Shown here: positions 3,997 through 20,673 of the stretch, piece after piece
Position numbering within the stretch: the stretch's first letter is position 1
Layout of the letters: each line of letters opens with the position of its first letter
Source: a virus
Length of the DNA: 40,004 bases
IMG/VR virus record: IMGVR_UViG_3300032215_000333
Span: 1-40,004 of that record
Reading direction: 5' to 3' (one strand)
Made by a program: the position numbers and the translations under genes
The notes under the pieces: model-generated
What the model saw: only the letters and a program-made list of their open reading frames with translations
Told to the model about the DNA's origin: nothing
Databases searched by the model: none

Positions 3997-4542
3997 ATGA
4001 AAACAATAGGCGATAAATTAACCAGTTTTGCAGTTACTGGAGTAAAACCTGGTGCATTGACACCAGACAATGCATTTGAAACAATCACAGAAAAAAGTTT
4101 TGAAGGTAAATGGAAAATCATCGTTTACTATCCAAAGGACTTTACATTCGTATGTCCAACAGAAATCGTAGCATATGATGCACTACGCAGTCAATTTGAA
4201 GACCGTGATGCTGTCTTATTAATTGGTTCAACAGACAACGAGTTCTGTAAACTAGCATGGCGTAATGCACACGAAGATTTAAAGAAAACAAACTCATGGA
4301 GTTTTGCTGACGTTGCACGTGGTGAACTATCACTAGCAAATCAATTGGGTATTTTCTTTGAACCAGCTGGTGCCGCATTACGTGCAACATTTATTGTTGA
4401 CCCCGATAACACAATTCAACACGTTACAGTAAACAACTTAGATGTTGGTCGTAATCCAGATGAAGCATTGCGTGTACTAGATGCATTGCAAACTGGTGAA
4501 CTGTGCCCTTGTAGTCGTCCAATCGGTGGCGACACATTATGA
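3997..4542 (+). CDS. ahpC: Peroxiredoxin AhpC
   Basis: A 181-residue typical 2-Cys peroxiredoxin. The peroxidatic cysteine is Cys53 in FTFVCPTE, and the C-terminus holds CPC (170-172) with the resolving cysteine. Such enzymes reduce hydrogen and alkyl peroxides and need a thiol reductant. The genome supplies an AhpD homologue 391 nt downstream, the reductant used with AhpC in mycobacteria, which suggests a self-contained peroxide defence. Preceded by CAGGAG and an ATAAATA element; overlaps the next gene by 4 nt. Confidence 0.95.
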   Translation: MKTIGDKLTSFAVTGVKPGALTPDNAFETITEKSFEGKWKIIVYYPKDFTFVCPTEIVAYDALRSQFEDRDAVLLIGSTDNEFCKLAWRNAHEDLKKTNSWSFADVARGELSLANQLGIFFEPAGAALRATFIVDPDNTIQHVTVNNLDVGRNPDEALRVLDALQTGELCPCSRPIGGDTL

Positions 4543-11644: not shown

Positions 11645-11652
11645 TATTTATG
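11645..11652 (-). promoter_or_regulatory. T4-late-like promoter directly at a start codon
   Basis: CATAAATA on the minus strand, followed by 5 nt and the ATG at 11639. With T4 spacing, transcription would start at or next to the A of the start codon. Its outermost base is also the first base of tRNA-Arg. Confidence 0.5.
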
Positions 11653-11728
11653 CGACCGTAACTCAGTTGGATAGAGTACCAGGCTACGAACTTGGGAGTC
11701 GGGAGTTCGAATCTCTCCGGTCGCACCA
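11652..11728 (+). tRNA. tRNA-Arg (ACG)
   Basis: Acceptor GCGACCG/CGGTCGC, anticodon loop CTACGAA, T-loop TTCGAAT, encoded CCA. First tRNA of the island. Confidence 0.95.
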
Positions 11729-11738
11729 AACAAAATAT

Positions 11739-11814
11739 ACCCTCTTCGCCAAGTTGGTAAGGCACGGGATTTTGATTCCCGCATGCGGTGGTTCGAGTCC
11801 ATCAGGGGGTGCCA
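11739..11814 (+). tRNA. tRNA-Gln (TTG)
   Basis: Acceptor ACCCTCT/AGGGGGT with one G-U pair, anticodon loop TTTTGAT, discriminator G as in bacterial tRNA-Gln, encoded CCA. Confidence 0.92.
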
Positions 11815-11815
11815 A

Positions 11816-11891
11816 GGTAATATAGCATAGCGGCTAATGCAACTGCTTCATACGCAGTCTATCGATGGTTCGAGTCCATCTATTACCACCA
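11816..11891 (+). tRNA. tRNA-Met (CAT), elongator or Ile2
   Basis: Acceptor GGTAATA/TATTACC, anticodon loop TTCATAC, T-arm GGTTCGAGTCC, encoded CCA. One base separates it from tRNA-Gln. A CAT anticodon can also be lysidine-modified Ile2; the tRNA at 16208 looks more like Ile2, so this one is more likely Met. Confidence 0.88.
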
Positions 11892-11897
11892 ATCATT

Positions 11898-11974
11898 GCC
11901 TCAATAGCTCATTTGGTTAGAGCACCGTCTTGATAAGGCGGGGGTGCCTAGTTCGAATCTAGGTTGAGGCACCA
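11898..11974 (+). tRNA. tRNA-Ile (GAT)
   Basis: Acceptor GCCTCAA/TTGAGGC, anticodon stem CCGTC/GGCGG with loop TTGATAA, T-loop TTCGAAT, encoded CCA. Confidence 0.95.
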
Positions 11975-11978
11975 ATAT

Positions 11979-12054
11979 GCCGATGTAGCTCAGATGGTAG
12001 AGCACCTGTCTGAAGAACAGGGTGTCACAAGTTCAACTCTTGTCGTCGGTACCA
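11979..12054 (+). tRNA. tRNA-Phe (GAA)
   Basis: Acceptor GCCGATG/CGTCGGT, anticodon stem CCTGT/ACAGG with loop CTGAAGA, T-loop TTCAACT, encoded CCA. Its 3' end overlaps the end of a minus-strand small gene. Confidence 0.93.
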
Positions 12055-12212
12055 AATAGTTCTAACTGAACAAATTCTTTTTGTTTAGTAGGAGAAAGTA
12101 TAGGATTAAGTACAAACTCTGTACTTGTAGTATATGATGCAGGTATCTTATATTTTTCATTAGAAAAATGTTTATATAACAACATGAATTCGGTATACTT
12201 ATCGGATTGCAT
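12033..12212 (-). CDS. 59-residue small protein of unknown function, antisense to tRNA-Phe end
   Basis: Minus-strand ATG at 12212 to stop at 12033. The C-terminus KEFVQLELFGTDDKS is partly encoded by the complement of tRNA-Phe. The frame opens further upstream, but this ATG has CATAAATA (12217-12224) exactly 4 nt before it, as at 24776. It fills a 169-nt gap between two tRNAs that is otherwise empty. No family recognised. Confidence 0.5.
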   Translation of the reverse strand: MQSDKYTEFMLLYKHFSNEKYKIPASYTTSTEFVLNPILSPTKQKEFVQLELFGTDDKS

Positions 12213-12216
12213 ATTG

Positions 12217-12224
12217 TATTTATG
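12217..12224 (-). promoter_or_regulatory. T4-late-like promoter directly at a start codon
   Basis: CATAAATA, then CAAT, then the ATG at 12212 on the minus strand. Overlaps the first base of tRNA-Leu (CAA). Confidence 0.45.
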
Positions 12225-12301
12225 CCCCCGTGGACAAATTGGCAAAGTCGTTTCTCTCAAAAGGAAAAGTTTTCTCCGTTCAACTCGGAGCGGGGGTACC
12301 A
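12224..12301 (+). tRNA. tRNA-Leu (CAA), atypical short variable region
   Basis: Acceptor GCCCCCG/CGGGGGT with G1-U72 as in some tRNA-Leu, D-arm GAC...GTC, anticodon loop CTCAAAA, T-arm CTCCG/CGGAG, encoded CCA. Only about 6 nt lie between anticodon and T stems, whereas tRNA-Leu normally has a long variable arm, so the isotype follows from the anticodon only. Confidence 0.75.
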
Positions 12302-12305
12302 GTAT

Positions 12306-12534
12306 TTCAACATCCGACCTAACGCTGGAAACAGAGGAAGTTCGGGACTTGTGGCAAGTGCGAGTGGGAGAAATTTACTTTGTTATTTGTCTGAAATTTA
12401 CTTTGTTATTTCGTTAAACCACCGTGATACAACAAGCAACACAAACAGAATCAGGCAACACTTGCGCTATTGATTTGGGTTGTGGCAAAGATTAATGTTA
12501 GGATAGAACAGAATCCCGGCTACGGGGTGTTGAA
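12306..12534 (+). ncRNA. rnpB: Miniature RNase P RNA candidate
   Basis: The two universally conserved halves of the RNase P catalytic core are present in the right order. 5' side: GAGGAAGTTCGGGA (12334-12347; bacterial consensus GAGGAAAGUCCGGGC). 3' side: AGAACAGAATCCCGGCTA (12505-12522; consensus AGACAGAAYCCGGCUUA). They pair as P4 (AAGTTCGGGA with TCCCGGCTA), keeping the single bulged U that is invariant in P4. Flanking helices also form: P1 TTCAACATCC (12306-12315) with GGGTGTTGAA (12525-12534); P2 CCTAAC (12318-12323) with GTTAGG (12497-12502); P3 reduced to CTG-GAAA-CAG (12325-12334). Inside, GCAAGTG (12354-12360) pairs with CACTTGC (12459-12465). At about 229 nt it is much smaller than the usual 350-400 nt; much of the specificity domain is missing or replaced by a tandem repeat. 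RNase P cleaves the 5' leader from pre-tRNA, fitting a position among 30 tRNA-type genes. Confidence 0.78.
12370..12411 (+). repeat. Tandem 19-nt repeat inside the RNase P RNA candidate
   Basis: GAAATTTACTTTGTTATTT occurs at 12370-12388 and again at 12393-12411, separated by 4 nt. It lies in the peripheral part of the RNA, not in the P1-P4 core. Confidence 0.85.
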
Positions 12535-12538
12535 TATT

Positions 12539-12630
12539 GCCAGCGAGACTTGATAGTCAGAGAGGTCTTATAAGCCTTTTAGCGCCAGATTAGCGTTCTT
12601 GAGTGGGTTTGATTCCCACCGCTGGTACCA
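12539..12630 (+). tRNA. Aberrant type II tRNA-like element, isotype unclear
   Basis: Acceptor GCCAGCG/CGCTGGT with encoded CCA and a 5-bp T stem GTGGG/CCCAC are clear, and a long variable-arm-like segment is present. The rest is abnormal: the T-loop is TTTGATT with U replacing the near-universal C56, and the candidate D-arm GACT-TGAT-AGTC has a 4-nt loop without GG, so the G19-C56 contact is lost on both sides. The best anticodon loop is CTTATAA (TAT) in a weak stem. It starts 4 nt after the RNase P RNA candidate. It may be degenerate, or a processing signal rather than a decoding tRNA. Confidence 0.5.
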
Positions 12631-12637
12631 ATTTTAT

Positions 12638-12714
12638 GGTGACTGTAGCTCAGTCGGTAGAGTCCCGGATTGTGATTCCGGTTGTCGGGAGTTCGAGCCT
12701 CCTCAGTCACCCCA
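12638..12714 (+). tRNA. tRNA-His (GTG)
   Basis: Eight-bp acceptor with the His-specific extra G(-1) opposite C73 (GGTGACTG/CAGTCACC), anticodon loop TTGTGAT, encoded CCA. Confidence 0.95.
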
Positions 12715-12739
12715 AATAATAAAGTATTTACTGTTTTGT

Positions 12740-12747
12740 GATAAATA
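12740..12747 (+). promoter_or_regulatory. T4-late-like promoter for the tandem paralogue cluster
   Basis: GATAAATA followed by a 22-nt stretch that carries ACAGGAG before ATG 12770. Confidence 0.45.
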
Positions 12748-12769
12748 CATGCACAGGAGACTATTAATC

Positions 12770-13102
12770 ATGGAACTAGTATTTAAAAAATATACATTAA
12801 TAACATATGTAGACTGGGTGCAAAATCCCGACAATGGTAATAATGTACCGGATAATGTACGACAATATACCGCTGCCAATGAATCATATCGAAGTGAGGC
12901 TCAAAAAAATAATGAAACACATCCATATTGTGGCTTTGATTTTGAAAATCAACAAGTAACAAGATATTGGAAAACTCAAGAAGCCGCAGAAGCGTATAAG
13001 GAAGTAGTACTAGCCAATGCACAAAAATTTAATATTAATATTAAAAGTTTAGAAATTTTAGACAATACTGATTGGGATCCGTCTAAAATCGTTAAAGTTT
13101 AA
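12770..13102 (+). CDS. Tandem paralogue family member 1, unknown function
   Basis: A 110-residue protein starting LVFKKYTLITYVDW, with the family core RYWKTQEAAEAYKEVVLANAQKF followed by NINIKSLEILDN. ACAGGAG (12752 onward) precedes ATG 12770; the frame is open upstream through tRNA-His but that part is not coding. The four neighbours in this family share a beta-strand-like start, an aromatic-x-T-x-E-x-A-E helix and an I-x-D-N end. No known function. Confidence 0.8.
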   Translation: MELVFKKYTLITYVDWVQNPDNGNNVPDNVRQYTAANESYRSEAQKNNETHPYCGFDFENQQVTRYWKTQEAAEAYKEVVLANAQKFNINIKSLEILDNTDWDPSKIVKV

Positions 13103-13116
13103 AAAGGTATTAAATA

Positions 13117-13446
13117 ATGACACTTAAATACACAAAATATATGGTAATATCATATAATGTATCTAAACAATTTCAAGATTTTACTGACAACGAAATTGCA
13201 TATACAAACGCTAATAAAGAAGAACGTTTAAAACATGTAAATTCGGGAGATACTCATCATGATGAGGTTATTCCATTGGAAGTACTGTATGATAATGAAA
13301 ATGGAAAAGTAAAAAGATATTTTACGACACTAGAGGCAGCAGAATCATATAAAGCAACCGTGATTGCTAACGCACAAAAATACAATGTTGGATTAAAAAG
13401 TGTAGACATTTTTGATAATGATAAAGATCCAGATATTATTTTATAA
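13117..13446 (+). CDS. Tandem paralogue family member 2, unknown function
   Basis: A 109-residue protein: KYTKYMVISYNVSKQFQDFT at the N-terminus, family core VKRYFTTLEAAESYKATVIA, then NAQKYNVGLKSVDIFDNDKD. Thirteen nt after member 1 with AAAAGG in the gap, so probably on the same transcript. The core aligns residue by residue with members 1 and 3. Confidence 0.8.
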   Translation: MTLKYTKYMVISYNVSKQFQDFTDNEIAYTNANKEERLKHVNSGDTHHDEVIPLEVLYDNENGKVKRYFTTLEAAESYKATVIANAQKYNVGLKSVDIFDNDKDPDIIL

Positions 13447-13470
13447 AATAATTTATTGTTAATTAACGTT

Positions 13471-13478
13471 TATAAATA
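13471..13478 (+). promoter_or_regulatory. T4-type late promoter, exact octamer
   Basis: TATAAATA identical to the T4 late consensus, 20 nt before ATG 13499, with ACGGAGA in the leader. Supplies paralogues 3 and 4. Confidence 0.6.
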
Positions 13479-13498
13479 TGTCTACGGAGATATGACAC

Positions 13499-13897
13499 AT
13501 GGAACTAACATATAAAAAATACGGATTGGTAGTTTTTGCTAATCCCACAAAAGAATTAACAAAAAATCAAATAGCATTCATGATGGATAACATGGAAAAA
13601 CTTCAAGTATTCATCGACGCCAAAGAAACACCAAATAACTTAATTCCCACACTTGACGGTCCTGGTCGTGTAAAGAAATACTTTACTACGCAAGAATCTG
13701 CTGAGGCGTGGAAGATTTCTATGTTAGCTAATGGTGAAAAACATGATGTGGGAATTTCTAGTTTAGAAATTTTTGACAATGATGTAGATCCCGTATTGCC
13801 CCCTCTAGAGGCAATGCAAAAATTCAATGCAATGTTAATATCAAATGCAAATAAATTTGATGTTGCCGTTCCTGATGTAGCTTGTTTAAAAGTCTAA
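13499..13897 (+). CDS. Tandem paralogue family member 3, unknown function
   Basis: A 132-residue protein: LTYKKYGLVVFANPTKELTK, then core VKKYFTTQESAEAWKISMLA and HDVGISSLEIFDNDVDP. It carries an extra 30 residues at the C-terminus that partly repeat the NANKFDV segment of the core (MLISNANKFDVAVPDV), as if a fragment of the family unit were duplicated. Exact T4 late octamer and ACGGAGA upstream. Confidence 0.8.
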   Translation: MELTYKKYGLVVFANPTKELTKNQIAFMMDNMEKLQVFIDAKETPNNLIPTLDGPGRVKKYFTTQESAEAWKISMLANGEKHDVGISSLEIFDNDVDPVLPPLEAMQKFNAMLISNANKFDVAVPDVACLKV

Positions 13898-14184
13898 TGT
13901 ATACTAAATACACCGTTGTTACTTTTGCTAATCCAAAAGAATCTTTTGCCGACTGGAGTGATGCTGAAATTGATTTTATAAATGATGCTTTTGAAAAAGC
14001 AGTATTACTTACTAGTCAAGGAAAAACACCAGGCTACCATGAACCAGTGGGTCTTGGTCAAGTTAAAAGATTATGGATAAATCTAGAGGCTGCTGAAGAA
14101 TGGAAACAATTTATATTTGACAATGCAGTTAAGCATAGTATATCCATAGATAATATTAAAATTTTTGATAATTTGGATTCTTAG
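13897..14184 (+). CDS. Tandem paralogue family member 4; stop codon lies inside tRNA-Arg (CCG)
   Basis: A 95-residue protein: MYTKYTVVTFANPKESFADW, core VKRLWINLEAAEEWKQFIFD, then NIKIFDNLDS. It starts on TAATG shared with member 3. Its last codons (GGA-TTC-TTAG in the DNA) are the first bases of the next tRNA: the TAG stop at 14182-14184 is tRNA nucleotides 8-10. Cutting at the tRNA 5' end would leave the mRNA without a stop codon. Confidence 0.8.
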   Translation: MYTKYTVVTFANPKESFADWSDAEIDFINDAFEKAVLLTSQGKTPGYHEPVGLGQVKRLWINLEAAEEWKQFIFDNAVKHSISIDNIKIFDNLDS

Positions 14185-14249
14185 TTCAACGGATAGAACC
14201 CCACGTTCCGATTGTGGCAACGCAGGTTCGAGTCCTGCAGAATCCGCCA
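14175..14249 (+). tRNA. tRNA-Arg (CCG)
   Basis: Acceptor GGATTCT/AGAATCC, anticodon stem CCACG/TGTGG with loop TTCCGAT, T-loop TTCGAGT, discriminator G, encoded CCA. Nucleotides 1-10 overlap the end of the upstream gene. Confidence 0.93.
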
Positions 14250-14273
14250 ACATAGTCTAAGAAAGGAAAAATC

Positions 14274-14834
14274 ATGTCTGTGTTAACTTTAGATATCTCT
14301 GGTACTCCAAGACAATGGATTTCTACTGACGATGCTATTACATATCATGCAAAAAAAGCAGTGGCATGGGCACTAGGAGAAGTCATTGCAAAATATCGTG
14401 GTGGAACACAACGTGACGGACAAACAAGTTATTTAGAAACAACAAGTATAATTGCAGTTAAAGGTCATGGATTTAATCCATACAAACATGCAAATGTTGC
14501 ACTAAGTAACAAAACACTGTTTGGTCGGGACCGACACATATGTGCATACTGCGGGGACCACTTCCCAAATTATCATCACCTAAGTAGGGACCATATAGTC
14601 CCTAAATTTTTGGGTGGTGAAAACACTTGGATGAATGTTGTTACTGCATGTAAAGACTGCAATAGCAAGAAAAGTCACAAGACACTAAAACAAGCACGTA
14701 TGGAGTTGTTGTACGTACCCTACGTACCAAATCACTATGAAAATATGATTCTACAAAATCGCACGATTTTAGCGGATCAAATGGAATACCTATTAGCAGG
14801 TGTCCCTAAACATAGTAGAATTCTACTAAACTAG
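14274..14834 (+). CDS. HNH endonuclease
   Basis: A 186-residue protein with a C-terminal HNH domain: zinc cysteines CAYC (90-93) and CKDC (126-129) frame HHLSRDHIVPKFLGG (Asp106-His107) and Asn121/Asn130 of NTWMNVVTACKDCN. HNH enzymes nick or cut DNA; in phages they are often homing endonucleases or packaging-associated nucleases. Free-standing next to tRNA genes, a homing role is plausible but no intron is seen. GAAAGGAAAA precedes the start. Confidence 0.9.
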   Translation: MSVLTLDISGTPRQWISTDDAITYHAKKAVAWALGEVIAKYRGGTQRDGQTSYLETTSIIAVKGHGFNPYKHANVALSNKTLFGRDRHICAYCGDHFPNYHHLSRDHIVPKFLGGENTWMNVVTACKDCNSKKSHKTLKQARMELLYVPYVPNHYENMILQNRTILADQMEYLLAGVPKHSRILLN

Positions 14835-14857
14835 GTTGACATAAAAATCAGCCTAGT
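14830..14857 (+). promoter_or_regulatory. Inverted repeat over the tRNA promoter -35 region
   Basis: ACTAGGTTGA (14830-14839) and TCAGCCTAGT (14848-14857) form a 10-bp stem with one G-U pair and an 8-nt loop. It covers the HNH stop codon and the -35 box. Could be an operator or a weak terminator; there is no T-run. Confidence 0.5.
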
Positions 14858-14864
14858 GTATAAT
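14836..14864 (+). promoter_or_regulatory. Sigma70-type promoter for tRNA-Thr/Asn
   Basis: Perfect TTGACA (14836-14841), 17-nt spacer, perfect TATAAT (14859-14864), starting 12 nt before tRNA-Thr. Confidence 0.8.
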
Positions 14865-14882
14865 TCATCTAAATAAGTATTC

Positions 14883-14958
14883 GCCCCCTTAGCTCATCTG
14901 GTAGAGCAACTGATTTGTAATCAGTAGGTGGTCTGTTCGAGTCGGACAGGGGGCACCA
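14883..14958 (+). tRNA. tRNA-Thr (TGT)
   Basis: Acceptor GCCCCCT/AGGGGGC, anticodon stem ACTGA/TCAGT with loop TTTGTAA, encoded CCA. Confidence 0.95.
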
Positions 14959-14963
14959 AATAT

Positions 14964-15038
14964 TCCCTTGTAGCTCAGTGGTAGAGTAGTTGACTGTTAA
15001 TCAATTGGTCCGTGGTTCGAGCCCACGCAGGGGAGCCA
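14964..15038 (+). tRNA. tRNA-Asn (GTT)
   Basis: Acceptor TCCCTTG/CAGGGGA, anticodon loop CTGTTAA, T-arm CGTGG/CCACG, discriminator G as in tRNA-Asn, encoded CCA. Confidence 0.94.
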
Positions 15039-15059
15039 AATAAATCTTTGTTGTCAGGC

Positions 15060-15088
15060 TTGACAATAAATCGAATCACAAGTATAAT
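15060..15088 (+). promoter_or_regulatory. Extended-element promoter for tRNA-Arg (TCT)
   Basis: TTGACAATAAATCG followed by TATAATAC with 17-nt spacing. Same extended sequence as at 15314, 25297, 29206 and 29964. Confidence 0.8.
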
Positions 15089-15106
15089 ACACTTTTTAGA
15101 AATTCT

Positions 15107-15181
15107 CTGGCGTTCGTTCAACGGATAGGACATGATTCTTCTAAAGTCATTATGGGGGTTCGATTCCCTCACGCCGGACCA
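15107..15181 (+). tRNA. tRNA-Arg (TCT)
   Basis: Acceptor CTGGCGT/ACGCCGG, anticodon stem TGATT/AGTCA with loop CTTCTAA, T-loop TTCGATT, encoded CCA. Reads AGA and AGG. Confidence 0.93.
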
Positions 15182-15187
15182 ATAACA

Positions 15188-15209
15188 GTTGTTGTAATTT
15201 TACAACAAC
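15188..15209. repeat. Perfect GTTGT/ACAAC hairpin upstream of a promoter
   Basis: GTTGTTGTAA and TTACAACAAC form a 10-bp stem with a TT loop, directly upstream of the promoter at 15216. Similar hairpins precede the promoters at 25297 and 29964. Confidence 0.7.
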
Positions 15210-15215
15210 AAAAAG

Positions 15216-15244
15216 TTGACGTTAAATCGAGGTAGTGATACAAT
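15216..15244 (+). promoter_or_regulatory. First of two tandem promoters for the large structured RNA
   Basis: TTGACG (15216-15221), 17-nt spacer, TACAAT (15239-15244). Lies in the first copy of a 40-nt repeat. Confidence 0.7.
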
Positions 15245-15360
15245 CATTACATGAGTTGAGAAATTGATTCAGATTAGTTGGTAAAAGATTGTTGTAGAAA
15301 TACAAAAAATCATTTGACAATAAATCGAGGTAGTGATACAATCATTACATGAGTTGAGAA
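15223..15360 (+). repeat. Exact 40-nt direct repeat duplicating a promoter
   Basis: The 40 nt beginning TAAATCGAGGTAGTGATACA and ending GAGTTGAGAA occur at 15223-15262 and 15321-15360, identical, 98 nt apart. Each copy carries a promoter spacer, -10 box and initial transcribed region. Confidence 0.9.
15314..15342 (+). promoter_or_regulatory. Second tandem promoter for the large structured RNA
   Basis: TTGACA (15314-15319) within TTGACAATAAATCG, 17-nt spacer, TACAAT (15337-15342); expected start near 15349. Confidence 0.75.
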
Positions 15361-15785
15361 GTTATCAGACTTTTTAACGTGTTCTTTAAAAAATTAAGTT
15401 TCATATAGCATCTTGATTTTCAAGGTGTTATATGTAAGTATCGTAAAGGTTACCTACACCGTTAGGAGCTGTAAGAGAGGAGCACAGGGGCCGCCCTACG
15501 CAATCTTATAGCTCATGAAGTCAGGCGAACCACTGTCAAGGTGGCAAGTGAGATGGCGGAAACTGTAGGACTGTAATGACCGTGCAGGCTTACGTGGAGA
15601 CGTTCCCGTAAGTAGAGATAGATGCACAATGGTTCCTTTAGTTTACTTACATATAACATTTTATGCTCAGATACGTCCACGCAAAGTTCGCAACTTTGGA
15701 CCACGCTTAGGTAGCACCTAAGGGCAGTGGGTGGGGCTTACGTAGCCTCTCGGTGATAGAAGGTGGGAATCCTTCAAGGAGCGCC
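15349..15785 (+). ncRNA. Large structured non-coding RNA (about 440 nt)
   Basis: No coding frame of note. Pairings found by eye: GTTATATGTAAGTA (15427-15440) with TACTTACATATAAC (15644-15657), 14 perfect bp spanning 200 nt; TAAAGG (15444-15449) with CCTTTA (15635-15640), stacked inside it; GAGCTGTAAGA (15466-15476) with TCTTATAGCTC (15504-15514); CTTACG (15589-15594) with CGTAAG (15607-15612). A 3' domain holds four local hairpins: CAAAGT/ACTTTG (15682-15698), CTTAGGT/ACCTAAG (15706-15722), GGCT/AGCC (15735-15747) and GAAGG/CCTTC (15759-15775). The size, elaborate fold, tRNA neighbours and phage setting recall the GOLLD and ROOL classes of large ornate RNAs, but I cannot assign it to either. 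Confidence 0.75.
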
Positions 15786-15793
15786 TAACTAAT

Positions 15794-15869
15794 GCTCGGT
15801 TCGTCTAGAGGCCTAGGACAACGCCCTTTCACGGCGTGAACAGGGATTCGAATTCCCTACCGAGTACCA
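15794..15869 (+). tRNA. tRNA-Glu (TTC)
   Basis: Acceptor GCTCGGT/ACCGAGT with G1-U72, anticodon stem ACGCC/GGCGT with loop CTTTCAC, T-arm AGGGA/TCCCT, encoded CCA. Confidence 0.94.
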
Positions 15870-15874
15870 ATATC

Positions 15875-15958
15875 GGAGATGTAGGAAAACTGGTAACCCC
15901 AGCTGACTGTAAATCAGCCGCTTCGGCACTGTTGGTTCAACTCCAACCGTCTCCACCA
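15875..15958 (+). tRNA. tRNA-Tyr (GTA)
   Basis: Acceptor GGAGATG/CGTCTCC, anticodon stem GCTGA/TCAGC with loop CTGTAAA, long variable arm, encoded CCA. Confidence 0.95.
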
Positions 15959-15965
15959 AGAACAT

Positions 15966-16042
15966 GGTCCCATAGTATAGCCTGGTAAATATAGCGGCTT
16001 GTCACGCCGTCGACAGGGGTTCGAATCCCCTTGGGACCGCCA
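15966..16042 (+). tRNA. tRNA-Asp (GTC)
   Basis: Acceptor GGTCCCA/TGGGACC, anticodon loop TTGTCAC, discriminator G, encoded CCA. Followed by a 72-nt spacer without recognised content. Confidence 0.95.
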
Positions 16043-16114
16043 GAGCAAATAACAGGAAACTGTTCAACGGTTGTTAGTGACGATGGGTGTTAGCAGGAAC
16101 TAATATAAATTTTT

Positions 16115-16201
16115 GCGAGTGTGGTGAAATAGGTAGACACAAGAGACTTAAAATCTCTCGCCTGAAAGGGCATGCCGGTTCGATTCCGGCCACTCGCACC
16201 A
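16115..16201 (+). tRNA. tRNA-Leu (TAA)
   Basis: Acceptor GCGAGTG/CACTCGC, anticodon stem AGAGA/TCTCT with loop CTTAAAA, normal long variable arm, encoded CCA. Confidence 0.95.
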
Positions 16202-16207
16202 AACGTG

Positions 16208-16284
16208 GGGCCCTTAGCTCATTCGGTTAGAGCAGTGGACTCATAATCCATTGGTGGTGTGTTCGAATCACACAGGGCCCACCA
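16208..16284 (+). tRNA. tRNA with CAT anticodon, probably Ile2
   Basis: Acceptor GGGCCCT/AGGGCCC, anticodon loop CTCATAA, encoded CCA. The acceptor and TTAGCTCA start resemble bacterial tRNA-Ile2, whose C34 becomes lysidine and reads ATA. Elongator Met is the alternative. Confidence 0.85.
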
Positions 16285-16305
16285 AATTGTTAGTGTGTGA
16301 TTATT

Positions 16306-16400
16306 GGAGACGTGGGTGAGCCGGTTTAAACCACCTTCCTGCTAAGAAGACGTATGAGCAAAAACTTGTACCGAGAGTTCGAATCTCTCCGTCTCCGCCA
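16306..16400 (+). tRNA. tRNA-Ser (GCT)
   Basis: Acceptor GGAGACG/CGTCTCC, anticodon loop CTGCTAA in a 4-bp stem plus a C-A mismatch, long variable arm, discriminator G, encoded CCA. Confidence 0.92.
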
Positions 16401-16413
16401 ATAATATTTTTTC

Positions 16414-16491
16414 GGTGAGGTGGCAGAGCGGCCCAATGCAAGGGATTGCAAATCCCTAAAACCGTGAGTTCAAATCTCACCCTCACCTCCA
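16414..16491 (+). tRNA. tRNA-Cys (GCA)
   Basis: Acceptor GGTGAGG/CCTCACC, anticodon stem AGGGA/TCCCT with loop TTGCAAA, discriminator U typical of tRNA-Cys, encoded CCA. The following 112-nt spacer has two inverted repeats (GACA..AACGT/ACGTT..TGTC and GGGAT..ACGT/ACGT..ATCCC) and no gene. Confidence 0.94.
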
Positions 16492-16603
16492 GCAGATTTT
16501 TAACTTAAAGGAAATGACATGAAACGTAGCAAACGTTAGTGTCATCTTTAGATTCCATGTATGGTCTAGGGATGGCACGTAAAATCAAATTAATACGTAC
16601 TAT

Positions 16604-16678
16604 CCCTTCGAGATGTTACGGTAGCATACCGGACTCTTAATCCGAGAAGACTGAGTTCAATTCTCAGCGGAGGGACCA
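16604..16678 (+). tRNA. tRNA-Lys (CTT)
   Basis: Acceptor CCCTTCG/CGGAGGG, anticodon loop CTCTTAA, T-arm CTGAG/CTCAG, encoded CCA. One C-A mismatch at the base of the anticodon stem. Confidence 0.88.
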
Positions 16679-16684
16679 TATTAT

Positions 16685-16760
16685 GGAAGCATAACTCAAT
16701 GGCTAGAGTATCCGGCTTTTAACCGGAAAGTTGTGGGTTCGAGCCCCACTGCTTCTACCA
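16685..16760 (+). tRNA. tRNA-Lys (TTT)
   Basis: Acceptor GGAAGCA/TGCTTCT, anticodon stem TCCGG/CCGGA with loop CTTTTAA, T-loop TTCGAGC, encoded CCA. The CCA also belongs to a long downstream inverted repeat. Confidence 0.94.
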
Positions 16761-16981
16761 TATATAAACATACTATAGGTTGGGTTAGATTCGCGGTCTA
16801 ACTATTTGGGTCTGTAGTGTAGCCCTCCAAAACTACACGTGACTAAGATACATAGTGTGTTTATATATGGTAAAAATTGTCCGGCACAGGATCCGAAAGG
16901 ACTGCAAAGACGTATAGCCAGGATTTACTGGTGAACTGGAAAGGAACAGCCAGGTACGGACATCCGGGGAGGATAACCCCC
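16758..16981 (+). ncRNA. Candidate structured RNA that pairs with the tRNA-Lys 3' end
   Basis: CCATATATAAACATACTAT (16758-16776) pairs with ATAGTGTGTTTATATATGG (16852-16870), 19 bp with one G-U, including the CCA of tRNA-Lys. Enclosed hairpins are GTTAGA/TCTAAC (16784-16802) and GTGTAG/CTACAC (16817-16838). A second domain is closed by TGTCCG (16878-16883) and CGGACA (16957-16962), followed by GGGG/CCCC (16966-16980). No coding frame. Confidence 0.55.
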
Positions 16982-16990
16982 AACTAATTT

Positions 16991-17082
16991 GGAAATGTGG
17001 CAGAGTCCGGTTTATTGCAACAGTCTTGAAAACTGTCGTGTCAGCGATGGCACCGTGAGTTCGAATCTCACCGTTTCCGCCA
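16991..17082 (+). tRNA. tRNA-Ser (TGA)
   Basis: Acceptor GGAAATG/CGTTTCC, anticodon stem ACAGT/ACTGT with loop CTTGAAA, long variable arm, discriminator G, encoded CCA. Confidence 0.95.
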
Positions 17083-17086
17083 AAGG

Positions 17087-17233
17087 TTTTGTTTACGTGC
17101 GTACGGTAACCATATGTGACTAGCGAGTTGCCCAAGACACTTGTTAGTGTACCTGATGTCCGTAGCAGGTCTGGCTCCATGCCTGGGCTCCGCACACGAC
17201 TTGGACATTGTGTAACGGTAAACAAATTCATTT
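17087..17233 (+). ncRNA. Candidate structured spacer RNA between tRNA-Ser and tRNA-Trp
   Basis: TTTGTTTAC near the 5' end pairs with GTAAACAAA near the 3' end (about 17217-17226), enclosing hairpins ACACT-TGTT-AGTGT (about 17137-17151) and ACCTG/CAGGT (about 17150-17169). GC content of the interior is clearly above that of neighbouring coding DNA. No coding frame and no family recognised. Confidence 0.45.
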
Positions 17234-17235
17234 TT

Positions 17236-17309
17236 GTCTCTCTGATGTAATGGCAGCATAGCGGTCTCCAAAACCGTTCGTTGGGGTTCGAGTCCCTAGG
17301 GGGACGCCA
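17236..17309 (+). tRNA. tRNA-Trp (CCA)
   Basis: Acceptor GTCTCTC/GGGGGAC with G-U pairs, anticodon stem GCGGT/ACCGT with loop CTCCAAA, discriminator G, encoded CCA. Confidence 0.93.
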
Positions 17310-17313
17310 AATT

Positions 17314-17387
17314 GCGGGGTTCGTATAGTGGTAATACCTTAGCCTTCCAAGCTAATGCTGAGAGTTCGATTCTCTTACCCCGCTCCA
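17314..17387 (+). tRNA. tRNA-Gly (TCC)
   Basis: Acceptor GCGGGGT/ACCCCGC, anticodon stem TTAGC/GCTAA with loop CTTCCAA, discriminator U as in bacterial tRNA-Gly, encoded CCA. Confidence 0.95.
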
Positions 17388-17389
17388 CT

Positions 17390-17397
17390 GATAAATA
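17390..17397 (+). promoter_or_regulatory. T4-late-like promoter element
   Basis: GATAAATA, 8 nt before ATG 17406; leader would be very short and has no ribosome site. Confidence 0.4.
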
Positions 17398-17405
17398 AAA
17401 ATATC

Positions 17406-18041
17406 ATGCAAACAATAACAGTTAATAGCGTAAATATAGATATCCACGAAGGTCCAATTGGAGTTAGTGTAAGCGGTGGTGCTGATAGTGCAATTTTATT
17501 ATATATACTAATGAAACACGCACCGGGCCCAATCCATGTATATACATGCGTTGGTAAATCAAAGAATAGAGTAGCACCGCATGTTGTATCTAATTTGATT
17601 GGTAAATTGATTGATATGACCGGTAGAAAAGATAATGAAATTTTTCATCACTGTTCATTTGTAGATGACCAGCATATTACTAACATGTTTGTTTTACCTA
17701 GAGATAATCTTAATAATGGTATTATTAATTACATGTATACTGGTACAACAGCGAATCCCCCGGTAAATGTCACCGATGATTTTTTTGGAGACAACTTTAC
17801 ACATAATGAACGTAATCCTGAGGTAATAAGACCCTATTATAAAAGTAGAGACAATAAATTTTATGTGCCGTTTATAAACGTAGACAAACAAGTTATACGC
17901 GGTATGTATGAAGAATTAAATGTACTAGAAGAATTATTTCCATTGACACGTTCCTGTGAAAGTTTTACATTAACTGAAGGGCATTGCGGTGAATGCTGGT
18001 GGTGTCAAGAAAGGCACTGGGGATTTGGTAGGCTCTTTTAA
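17406..18041 (+). CDS. PP-loop ATPase, QueC-like
   Basis: A 211-residue protein with the PP-loop motif SGGADS (23-28) after a beta-strand, which binds ATP pyrophosphate, and a C-terminal zinc-type cluster CGECWWCQERHWGFGR preceded by SCESF. The SC..CGxCxxC..R..GF layout is that of QueC/ExsB 7-cyano-7-deazaguanine synthases. No folE, queD or queE homologue is in the window, so it may belong to a 7-deazaguanine pathway encoded elsewhere or act on another carboxylate. Start at 17406 since upstream frame is tRNA-Gly. Confidence 0.75.
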   Translation: MQTITVNSVNIDIHEGPIGVSVSGGADSAILLYILMKHAPGPIHVYTCVGKSKNRVAPHVVSNLIGKLIDMTGRKDNEIFHHCSFVDDQHITNMFVLPRDNLNNGIINYMYTGTTANPPVNVTDDFFGDNFTHNERNPEVIRPYYKSRDNKFYVPFINVDKQVIRGMYEELNVLEELFPLTRSCESFTLTEGHCGECWWCQERHWGFGRLF

Positions 18042-18067
18042 CTAAATAGTTAATCAGGAGATTAACT

Positions 18068-18244
18068 ATGGACAACACGTTAAAGCAAGAAATCAAACAG
18101 TATTTAAAAGAAAATATGACCTTGGACATATCACAGATATCTGATATCTATCAGATTAATCCAGATGAAGTAAAAATCAATATTTTACTTGAGGGTGAAG
18201 TGATAGCAAGTGGGAAAATTAATCCAACATATGATTGGAGTTAA
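18068..18244 (+). CDS. 58-residue small protein of unknown function
   Basis: ATG 18068 with CAGGAG 10 nt before and TAA 18242-18244. Sequence begins MDNTLKQEIKQYLKENMTLD and continues with a beta-rich end (EVKINILLEGEVIASGKI). The N-terminal helix-rich segment with DISQISDIYQINPDEV could be a small HTH-like fold, but this is weak. Located just upstream of a tRNA promoter. Confidence 0.7.
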   Translation: MDNTLKQEIKQYLKENMTLDISQISDIYQINPDEVKINILLEGEVIASGKINPTYDWS

Positions 18245-18245
18245 G

Positions 18246-18274
18246 TTGACAAATTCAAACTAACATGATACAAT
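18246..18274 (+). promoter_or_regulatory. Sigma70-type promoter for tRNA-Leu (TAG) and tRNA-Ala
   Basis: TTGACA (18246-18251), 17-nt spacer, TACAAT (18269-18274). Confidence 0.75.
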
Positions 18275-18290
18275 ACATGTTAGATTAAAT

Positions 18291-18373
18291 GCCCCGATGG
18301 TGGAATGGTAGACACGGTGGTCTTAGAAGCCACTGCCAAAAGCGTGAGAGTTCGAGTCTCTCTTGGGGCACCA
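18291..18373 (+). tRNA. tRNA-Leu (TAG)
   Basis: Acceptor GCCCCGA/TTGGGGC, anticodon stem GTGGT/GCCAC with loop CTTAGAA, variable arm present, encoded CCA. Confidence 0.95.
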
Positions 18374-18382
18374 AAAAGTTTT

Positions 18383-18458
18383 GGGGGTGTAGCTCACCTG
18401 GGAGAGCGACTGGTTTGCAACCAGTAGGTAGCGGGTTCGAGTCCTGTCACCTCCACCA
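18383..18458 (+). tRNA. tRNA-Ala (TGC)
   Basis: Acceptor GGGGGTG/CACCTCC, anticodon stem ACTGG/CCAGT with loop TTTGCAA, encoded CCA. The usual alanine identity pair G3-U70 is present. Confidence 0.94.
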
Positions 18459-18474
18459 AGTATAGAAAGCGTAA

Positions 18475-19047
18475 ATGAAAATTGCAATTACTGGACACAC
18501 TAGAGGAATAGGTAAAGCACTAAGCGATGGCTTTGCAAGTCAGGGACATGAGGTTATAGGCTTTAGTAGGTCTACAACTCCCAACTTATCTAGTGAAGAA
18601 GGTATAGAGGCAGTTGCAAACGCAAGCATTGATTGTGATATGATTGTTATTAATGCGTATGATTTTGAATTACGTAAAACTAATTTAGGATTTGCACAGA
18701 CAACATTATTACTTAAGATGTGGGAGTTATGGAAAGATAAAGATAAAATTATTGTGACTATAGGTAGTAGGTCAAGTGATGGTAGCATGATTGGTAGTGA
18801 CCCAGTACCAATGAGACCTTTTTACTATTATATTCACAAGTGTACGCTAGATTTAGCAGTCAAACAGTTGAGAAACATACAGAAAACTAATCCGCAAATT
18901 ATAAATTTAAAACCGGGTTACGTTGATACTGATATGATATCACATGTGACTGCTAAAAAGTTAGATCCAAAAGATGTGTTTGAATTATTAGATTGGGCAA
19001 TTAAGCACAAGAATCTAATTTTAGACTTATCTTTTACTGTTAGATAG
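18475..19047 (+). CDS. Short-chain dehydrogenase/reductase-like protein, paralogue 2
   Basis: A 190-residue Rossmann protein: IAITGHTRGIGKALSDGFA (cofactor loop), GHEVIGFSRS, MIVINAY, IVTIGSRSS in the catalytic Ser position, YYYIHKCTLDLAVKQL supplying Tyr and Lys as in the YxxxK motif, and LKPGYVDTDM, the PG motif after the active site. More canonical than the paralogue at 7286. Substrate unknown. It ends 4 nt before tRNA-Met. Confidence 0.88.
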   Translation: MKIAITGHTRGIGKALSDGFASQGHEVIGFSRSTTPNLSSEEGIEAVANASIDCDMIVINAYDFELRKTNLGFAQTTLLLKMWELWKDKDKIIVTIGSRSSDGSMIGSDPVPMRPFYYYIHKCTLDLAVKQLRNIQKTNPQIINLKPGYVDTDMISHVTAKKLDPKDVFELLDWAIKHKNLILDLSFTVR

Positions 19048-19051
19048 ATTA

Positions 19052-19125
19052 CGCGGGTAGGGTGGTCACCACTTCGGTCTCATAAGCCAGGAGCATCGGC
19101 AGTTCGAATCTGTCACCCGCATCCA
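19052..19125 (+). tRNA. tRNA-Met (CAT), initiator-like
   Basis: Acceptor CGCGGGT/ACCCGCA leaves C1 opposite A72, the mismatch that marks bacterial initiator tRNA. Anticodon loop CTCATAA, encoded CCA, discriminator U. The anticodon stem lacks the three G-C pairs of classical initiators and the D-arm is short. Confidence 0.8.
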
Positions 19126-19137
19126 AAATTAACACGG

Positions 19138-19180
19138 CTCCCTTCTGTTGCTTAACAGGACAGCTAGGGAGTTCTTCATT
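19138..19180 (+). terminator. Terminator-like hairpin after tRNA-Met
   Basis: CTCCCT (19138-19143) and AGGGAG (19166-19171) enclose CTGTT/AACAG (19145-19158), followed by TTCTTCATT. Confidence 0.5.
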
Positions 19181-19191
19181 CTAGGAAAGTT

Positions 19192-19320
19192 ATGATAGTT
19201 GAAATTTTTGTATATGGATTTATATCAGCATTTGGTTGGTGGACAGCTAATCATTATGTAATTGAACCTCATTTTCCTCCTGCAATTGAACGCAAGGATA
19301 AAGAGGATAAGGACAAGTGA
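19192..19320 (+). CDS. 42-residue small membrane protein
   Basis: ATG 19192 with AGGAAAG upstream; TGA 19318-19320 overlaps the next ATG. N-terminal hydrophobic segment IVEIFVYGFISAFGWWTA, then a highly charged tail ERKDKEDKDK. One membrane pass is likely. No family recognised; co-translated with the following membrane protein. Confidence 0.65.
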   Translation: MIVEIFVYGFISAFGWWTANHYVIEPHFPPAIERKDKEDKDK

Positions 19321-19565
19321 TGTTAGAGTACATCATTACTTTTTTTGCTATTTTTTTACTGGATGTGGTATACACATACTATTTAAGATGCGTAGCAAAT
19401 AATAATGTATTAGGAGCAAGTTTTTGGTCAGTAGCCTGTTACATTTTAGGAAGTGTAGCAGTTATAAATTATACGACCAACCATTGGTTAATGATTCCGG
19501 CAATGGCTGGAGCATTCTTTGGAACATTTGTAGGGATGAAAATTAAAAAGAATAACGGAGTGTAG
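19320..19565 (+). CDS. Small membrane protein; stop codon lies inside tRNA-Pro
   Basis: An 81-residue protein with about three membrane segments (YIITFFAIFLLDVVYTYYL, a middle SVACYILGSVAVI and a C-terminal MIPAMAGAFFGTFVGM) and a basic end KIKKNNGV. ATG 19320 overlaps the previous TGA. Its TAG stop (19563-19565) is nucleotides 8-10 of tRNA-Pro, the same geometry as the gene before tRNA-Arg (CCG). Function unknown. Confidence 0.75.
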   Translation: MLEYIITFFAIFLLDVVYTYYLRCVANNNVLGASFWSVACYILGSVAVINYTTNHWLMIPAMAGAFFGTFVGMKIKKNNGV

Positions 19566-19632
19566 CGCAGTCTGGTAGCGCACCTGGTTTGGGACCAGGG
19601 GGTCCAAGGTTCGAATCCTTGTACTCCGACCA
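19556..19632 (+). tRNA. tRNA-Pro (TGG)
   Basis: Acceptor CGGAGTG/TACTCCG with the C1-G72 pair typical of tRNA-Pro, anticodon stem CCTGG/CCAGG with loop TTTGGGA, encoded CCA. First ten bases overlap the upstream gene. Confidence 0.95.
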
Positions 19633-19653
19633 ATTTTATTAAAAGGAAATGTT

Positions 19654-19821
19654 ATGACATGTAGAGGGTATGATGCTAAGGCAGTGAAAATTTCAAAACA
19701 AGTTAAGCGTACCGCGGCGCAATATCTTGATCCGCACCTACGTGGAGCTATTATTCGTAGTTTTGTTGAGATTGAAAAGTCAGGACTACGTTCAGCACGT
19801 AAAGATAAGGATAGCAAGTAA
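19654..19821 (+). CDS. 55-residue small basic protein
   Basis: ATG 19654 with AAAAGGAAA upstream, TAA 19819-19821. Sequence starts MTCRGYDAKAVKISKQVKRT and is rich in Lys and Arg with little hydrophobic content. Helical and nucleic-acid-binding in character, but no family is recognised. Shares its stop (TAATG) with the next gene. Confidence 0.7.
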   Translation: MTCRGYDAKAVKISKQVKRTAAQYLDPHLRGAIIRSFVEIEKSGLRSARKDKDSK

Positions 19822-20000
19822 TGAGTAAGGGTAGTATGCCTCGTCCATATAGTGTTGATTTGAACACATTTGACAATAACTGGAACATGATTTTTCGTAA
19901 GCCTGATCCAAGAGTAATTGAAGACGCACAATTGGAAGATGAGGCATTCAACGAAATTGCTAAACAGACAGAAGTTAAAGACAGTCAACAAGGTGGCTAA
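19821..20000 (+). CDS. 59-residue small acidic protein
   Basis: ATG 19821 overlaps the previous TAA; TAA at 19998-20000, 10 nt before tRNA-Val. The sequence SVDLNTFDNNWNMIFRKPDP is followed by an acidic helix. It is acidic while its co-translated neighbour is basic, so the two could form a complex; that is speculation. Confidence 0.7.
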   Translation: MSKGSMPRPYSVDLNTFDNNWNMIFRKPDPRVIEDAQLEDEAFNEIAKQTEVKDSQQGG

Positions 20001-20010
20001 ATAGAATTAT

Positions 20011-20085
20011 GCCTGAATAGCTCAGGGGTAGAGCATCTCGTTTACACCGAGAGGGTCCGCGGTTCGAAACCGTGTTCAGGTACCA
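20011..20085 (+). tRNA. tRNA-Val (TAC)
   Basis: Acceptor GCCTGAA/TTCAGGT, anticodon stem TCTCG/CGAGA with loop TTTACAC, encoded CCA. Confidence 0.94.
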
Positions 20086-20092
20086 AGTATTT

Positions 20093-20168
20093 GCGGGAAT
20101 AGCTCAGTTGGTAGAGCGAGTGCTTGCCAAGCACTAGGTCGTCGGTTCGAACCCGATTTCCCGCTCCA
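20093..20168 (+). tRNA. tRNA-Gly (GCC)
   Basis: Acceptor GCGGGAA/TTCCCGC, anticodon stem AGTGC/GCACT with loop TTGCCAA, discriminator U, encoded CCA. Last tRNA of the island. Confidence 0.95.
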
Positions 20169-20185
20169 AATTTATAAAGGAAAAT

Positions 20186-20467
20186 ATGTCATCAATATCA
20201 TCTAGATACACAAGCGAAAAAGCAGTAGACAAAGTAGGTAACAGATTTGATTTAGTTCTCATCGCATCATTGAGGGTCAGAGAATTAACTACAGGTCATA
20301 GAACCAAGTTAACTGACCTTGGCACGAATAAAGATGACATGCCTAAACCAATGACAATCGCTTTGAGAGAAATTGAAGAAGGTTTAGTTGGTAGAGAATA
20401 TCTAGAACGCTATCGTAATAGTGACCGACAACGTAAGAAAAATTCTGACCGCTATACAGATTTGTAA
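20186..20467 (+). CDS. rpoZ: RNA polymerase omega subunit homologue
   Basis: A 93-residue protein that follows the bacterial RpoZ sequence: the N-terminal TSEKAVDKVGNRFDLVLIAS matches the conserved V-E-K-I-G-N-R-F-D-L-V-L-V-A block, then an R-x-R-E-L-x-x-G turn, and PMTIALREIEEGLVG matches the conserved T-V-I-A-L-R-E-I-E-E-G-L. Omega binds the C-terminal region of beta-prime, helps assemble RNA polymerase and forms part of a ppGpp site in proteobacteria. The C-terminus differs (basic, RQRKKNSDR). AAAGGAAA precedes the start. A phage copy could replace host omega. Confidence 0.93.
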   Translation: MSSISSRYTSEKAVDKVGNRFDLVLIASLRVRELTTGHRTKLTDLGTNKDDMPKPMTIALREIEEGLVGREYLERYRNSDRQRKKNSDRYTDL

Positions 20468-20672
20468 AGACACCCGGACGCCCTTGTCCGTTATACAAAG
20501 GGGGTGGGGCAGTCACCATAAAGAGTGCTAGGTTTGTAGTGCTATGACCATCCGATCCTGTGTAGGGAATACGGGAACGCATTAGGTGAGGTTTAACACC
20601 TTCCCATAAGAAGAAATGTTATGGACAGAGTAACCGCTCAGTTAGGGGCTCATGTGGTGTGAGTAGCCTAAC
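20468..20672 (+). ncRNA. Candidate structured RNA after rpoZ
   Basis: Gene-free stretch with successive stems: CGGAC/GTCCG (20475-20490), AGGTG/CACCT (20584-20601), CCATAA/TTATGG (20604-20624) and GTTAGG/CCTAAC (20641-20672) with an inner GCTCA/TGAG. The last stem could end rpoZ transcription or that of the convergent gene, but no long T-run follows. No family recognised. Confidence 0.45.
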
Positions 20673-20673
20673 A

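Follow-up and report, generated by a model that had tools for sequence, protein, structure and literature searches.

A phage-encoded RNA polymerase omega subunit at the end of a tRNA island, and its likely place in the host enzyme

The last gene of a viral tRNA island raises the question of whether a phage can encode a true omega subunit of RNA polymerase (RNAP), and which polymerase such a subunit would join. The window analyzed here is the whole of IMG/VR record IMGVR_UViG_3300032215_000333, a genome fragment of 40,004 bp. The gene (20186–20467, + strand) is an intact RpoZ-like reading frame of 93 aa with an ATG start and a TAA stop, and a ribosome-binding site, AAAGGA (20176–20181, +), is located 4 nt ahead of the start codon. 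Comparable AAAGGA or GAAAG sites are found upstream of the omega genes of many relatives. The protein matches Pfam PF01192 (Rpb6) with an E value of 1.7e-13 and 50.8 bits (cut-off 26), and NCBIfam TIGR00690 (the rpoZ equivalog) with 45.9 bits (cut-off 23.6); the score for the narrower model NF001579 is 24.1, under its cut-off of 58. A sequence search of the PDB finds omega chains for all the top matches, with E values of 1e-13 to 1e-12 for those of Vibrio and E. coli. The two motifs quoted in the initial annotation, VGNRFDLVLIAS and IALREIEEGL, are both present in the reading frame, as are the core motifs GNRFDLVL, A..RAR and AL.EI, with RVR in place of RAR in the window. A chance reading frame is excluded, because a homolog with 80% identity occupies the equivalent place, after the same two tRNA genes, in two related loci (L001 and L002).

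The AlphaFold (AF2) model of the protein has a pLDDT of 79.9, with helices at residues 11–17, 20–35, 55–64 and 70–91. Its Foldseek matches at E values of 0.001 or below are bacterial omegas, including that of Vibrio cholerae (7e-5), for which VIA gives a Z score of 10.4, and both programs rank bacterial omegas at the top. The protein is therefore predicted to have the omega fold. The equivalents of E. coli G14, N15, R16, D18, L21, A23, R26, R28, A50, L51, E53, I54 and G57 are kept in 91–100% of the phage sequences aligned. Family models, fold and core motifs agree, and the gene encodes a true omega with an intact core, as first annotated.

The window carries matches to an endolysin, a phage 2OG-Fe oxygenase, a polynucleotide-kinase-like protein and a baseplate-type tail protein, and neither a terminase nor a capsid gene was recognized within its 40,004 bp. 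A 331-kb relative (G006) encodes a terminase, a tail sheath protein and a ribonucleotide reductase, and a 524-kb relative (G263) encodes a terminase. The phage label of the window is thus supported. Bacterial DNA, present as contamination or as a chance host fragment inside a viral contig, would be another source of an omega gene, and the INPHARED matches to the window query are mostly DNA of this kind. Two records named 'Acinetobacter phage MD-2021a' (CAKLQH020000003.1 and CAKLQF020000004.1) match at an rpoZ gene, and the first of them is host chromosome at this position (gmk-rpoZ-spoT and pilus genes), that is, mislabeled or host DNA. For the window this explanation is extremely improbable, and it is refuted by several observations: the omega gene lies inside a phage tRNA island and does not adjoin gmk or spoT, the profile matches fall on 430 viral contigs, the phage omegas examined form their own clade, and relatives carry terminase, one of them with a tail sheath as well. 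Every INPHARED tblastn match is to bacterial DNA or is unverified, so that no named isolate is obtained from this collection. A search for pmoC as a clue to the host gave no match, and neither did its control.

A scan of IMG/VR with the single sequence finds 22 loci, and a profile scan finds 430, each on its own contig, of which the best 80 were kept; the contigs with a phage omega reach 524 kb. A tree was computed from 37 phage and 51 bacterial sequences, and in it a branch of length 1.04 (support 100/98) separates the phage omegas from the bacterial ones. This tree is based on 77 columns, its bootstrap is not fully settled, and its bacterial sequences are from Pseudomonadota only, although they include those that match the phage profile best. 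What was annotated as a single gene is hence a member of a widespread phage clade, and a phylogeny against bacterial RpoZ, the check proposed with that annotation, places this clade apart from the omegas of Pseudomonadota. The window omega has roughly 40–53% identity to its nearest bacterial matches, as compared to 62–66% to those of other phages and 80% to those of L001 and L002. Together with the separate clade, these values point to an ancient capture of a bacterial omega by large tailed phages, and not to a recent pick-up. The dN/dS ratios among related phage copies are 0.03–0.21, which indicates purifying selection. Between the window and L001 the ratio amounts to 0.18: about 60 synonymous sites carry 30 differences, and about 219 non-synonymous sites carry 29 (Fisher p = 9e-9).

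The position of the gene is also conserved. As the initial annotation noted, it is located at the end of the tRNA island (11652–20168, +), 18 nt past tRNA-Gly(gcc) (20093–20168, +), the last of 30 tRNA genes, which in turn follows tRNA-Val(tac) (20011–20085, +). The order tRNA-Val(tac), tRNA-Gly(gcc), omega recurs in the family, followed by tRNA-Ala(tgc) or tRNA-Trp(cca) and often with tRNA-Ser(tga) as well. Among 67 distinct phage omegas, 62 have tRNA genes on the same stretch and 48 have one within 300 nt; those of L010, L012, L013, L015, L017 and L022 are without a close tRNA gene. The closest strong upstream promoter of the sigma70 type (18246–18274, +; TTGACA-17-TACAAT, with TG before the -10 element, 11/12) stands ahead of tRNA-Leu(tag), and is a plausible start for a transcript in which omega would be made together with the tRNAs.

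The roughly 200 nt downstream of the gene (20468–20673) have no clear gene on the + strand and are flanked by omega and a convergent oxygenase gene. BLAST finds no match for this segment, and its terminal part (GCTCATG..GTGAGTAG) recurs directly downstream of omega in L001 and L002. A structured RNA directly 3' of omega was considered and rejected: Rfam gives only tRNAs in the window, the fold z-score is -0.67, and there is no similar phage DNA. Elsewhere among the tRNA genes, four adjacent reading frames (12599–14184) have similar C-terminal parts (YFTTxEAAExxK...IFDND) and resemble a tandem gene family.

Which polymerase would this omega join? Pfam models find no beta' domain in 11 large records and no beta domain in 14, and a scan for the beta' catalytic motif DxDGD in the long reading frames of two genomes (G006 and G263) gives only low-complexity matches and one that is unlike the catalytic loop; very divergent subunits of the phiKZ type could evade the Pfam models. 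The window's own genome could hold RNAP genes outside this view, as the window is a 40-kb fragment. The promoters are of the host type. Six perfect TTGACA-17-TATAAT promoters (at 14836, 15060, 21285, 25297, 29206 and 29964, all +) occur in the window, as compared to 0.03 expected, and several of them have TTGACAATAAAT in common. G263 has 52 perfect promoters with a spacer of 17 and 0–1 at other spacers, and G006 has 9. Since no beta or beta' domain was found in the large records and the window and two relatives have perfect sigma70 promoters, the sigma70 polymerase of the host is likely both the transcriber of these phages and the partner of their omega. Entry into host RNAP, which the initial annotation had raised, is well supported by these observations and by the conserved core, although indirectly, and we consider it quite likely that the phage omega enters this enzyme by binding beta'. 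An omega fold recruited for a task away from RNAP is very unlikely. In the window and L001 proteins, one loop does exceed that of the relatives by about 7 residues, but the core positions vary little or not at all throughout the phage clade, which is hard to explain without a beta' partner.

For omega within host RNAP, the sequences suggest three possible effects. The first involves ppGpp. In E. coli, the main chain of omega residues A2-R3-V4 holds the 3'-diphosphate of ppGpp at site 1, which governs elongation and backtracking (PMC10191844). In the window, the codons for S6-R7-Y8-T9-S10 (20201–20215, +) align with E. coli A2-R3-V4-T5-V6, the site 1 strand described in that study. The Met-Ala-Arg start of bacterial omegas is altered here, with R7 kept and an extension ahead of it. 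Such an extension is present in 50 of 66 distinct phage omegas (by exactly 4 residues in 39), compared with 3 of 118 bacterial ones. In addition, the arginine at the position of E. coli R52, a residue that may or may not contact ppGpp, is found in 11/66 phage and 117/118 bacterial omegas; it is lacking in the other 55 phage proteins, with at least 7 changes across the phage part of the tree. Because the ppGpp diphosphate is held by the omega main chain at this end of the protein, the altered phage N-terminus suggests an altered ppGpp response in elongation. Binding at site 1 could be lowered or abolished, so that phage transcription would not be slowed or backtracked as ppGpp rises in the infected cell. 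This effect is possible but somewhat unlikely. Site 1 is not uniformly destroyed, as 60 of 66 phage omegas retain an arginine at the position of R3 and 16 have no extension; the window omega itself retains both arginines (R7 and R61), and the stringent response does not need site 1 (PMC10191844). No RelA/SpoT homolog was found among 14 records.

The second possible effect is on dosage and assembly. Extra omega would act as a chaperone for beta' and keep RNAP stable as the host supply drops, and the residue changes would reflect drift or fit to the beta' of the host. The best documented role of omega is in the assembly and stabilization of beta' (PMC7700224, PMC9973325), and the conserved core residues and strong purifying selection are consistent with such a role. 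By itself, however, it does not account for the N-terminal extension or for a phage-specific segment, LVGREYLK (LVGREYLE in the window), which is near-fixed among phage omegas and variable among bacterial ones. This effect is doubtful, though a real possibility.

Residues E33, H38, V68-G69-R70 and Y72 are near-invariant in the phage clade and vary in bacteria. They could form part of a docking platform, the third possible effect, by which the phage omega would recruit a phage-encoded activator or sigma-like factor to RNAP, thereby shifting promoter choice. There is a precedent in GafA, which binds omega directly and activates the virus-like genes of RcGTA (PMC9638019). This reading is unlikely, as no partner was identified: among 14 large records sigma70 region 2 was not found in any and region 4 was not found in 13, and the phage promoters already fit the host consensus. 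The only region 4 match is in a 348-kb record (G262), in a protein of 327 aa (L278, 1075–2058, –) in which the domain is joined to a C-terminal metallopeptidase-like part with a HELTH motif. The three effects, which include the changes in promoter choice and ppGpp response raised in the initial annotation, are hypotheses that the present data do not separate.

Taken from capture to effect, the preferred reading is that large tailed phages acquired omega long ago and hold it by selection, probably so that the host enzyme they borrow contains a phage-made part during infection. A sigma70 promoter probably serves both the subunit and the phage tRNAs, and the subunit would bind host beta' through its conserved core and replace host omega in RNAP assembled during infection. 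As the host enzyme transcribes the phage, a phage-made subunit would favor phage transcription, most likely by keeping RNAP assembled and active under stress, by blunting ppGpp at site 1 in the beta'-omega pocket, or by offering a docking surface to a phage factor. E. coli can do without omega (PMC7700224), and the benefit to the phage must therefore be conditional. A more specific proposal is tentative, and we give it slightly less than even weight: that these large phages, as a widespread lineage, seize host RNAP through their own omega, one that is tuned to be blind or altered toward ppGpp or to carry a phage factor, and hence by replacing a subunit and not by an added inhibitor, a sigma factor or a chemical modification.

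Phages are known to supply complete polymerases, sigma factors, or proteins that act on the polymerase of the host by binding or modifying it. A conserved phage-made stand-in for one of the core subunits of the host polymerase, if true, would be a different route of takeover. The purpose of omega has long been debated, and a phage clade under selection provides a natural set of altered omegas for asking what omega and ppGpp site 1 do.

The phage omegas are similar to bacterial RpoZ (PF01192, TIGR00690; E. coli, V. cholerae) in fold, helix order, core residues and the site 1 arginine, and align with it nearly end to end. They differ in the N-terminal extension, in LVGREYLK, in the loss across most of the family of the R52-equivalent arginine, and in length (median 73 aa, as compared to 91 in the bacterial set). 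Moreover, the phage genes are located in tRNA islands and form a separate clade, whereas the bacterial genes are in a gmk-rpoZ-spoT block. The RPB6 proteins of nucleocytoviruses, weak matches in BFVD, are likewise virus-encoded members of the omega/Rpb6 superfamily. Those subunits work within complete virus-encoded polymerases of the eukaryotic type, whereas omega is the sole core subunit found in these phages. Phages with multi-subunit polymerases of the phiKZ type (PMC7824862) are also large phages with homologs of RNAP core subunits, but the arrangement is reversed: they have split beta and beta' subunits, and omega is not mentioned in the main text of that survey. As with GafA in RcGTA (PMC9638019), a virus-like element would act on transcription through omega, but in RcGTA the host provides omega and the element provides the activator.

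PHROGs has no match to an omega family and INPHARED, whose matches are host DNA or unverified, has no genuine phage omega; the family is thus missing from the usual phage references. A limited search of the open literature found no published account of a phage omega, and the terms 'omega' and 'rpoZ' are absent from the main text of the 224-genome jumbo phage survey (PMC7824862) and of the papers on huge phages (PMC7162821) and large freshwater phages (PMC7674155). Within this limited search, the family, its clade, its home in tRNA islands and its altered ppGpp end appear to be undescribed. Phage omega genes are not wholly unrecorded, as UniProt has one annotated entry, A0A6J5T227 from an uncultured Caudovirales phage, which is evidently the same kind of gene; its name, 'DNA-directed RNA polymerase', is a database annotation. 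This entry is the only BFVD match with an E value below 0.001 (39% identity, TM-score 0.78 by target length). Farther from the omega gene, the window also encodes a NifU/IscU-type scaffold protein (2270–2650) and an AhpC/TSA peroxiredoxin (3997–4542).
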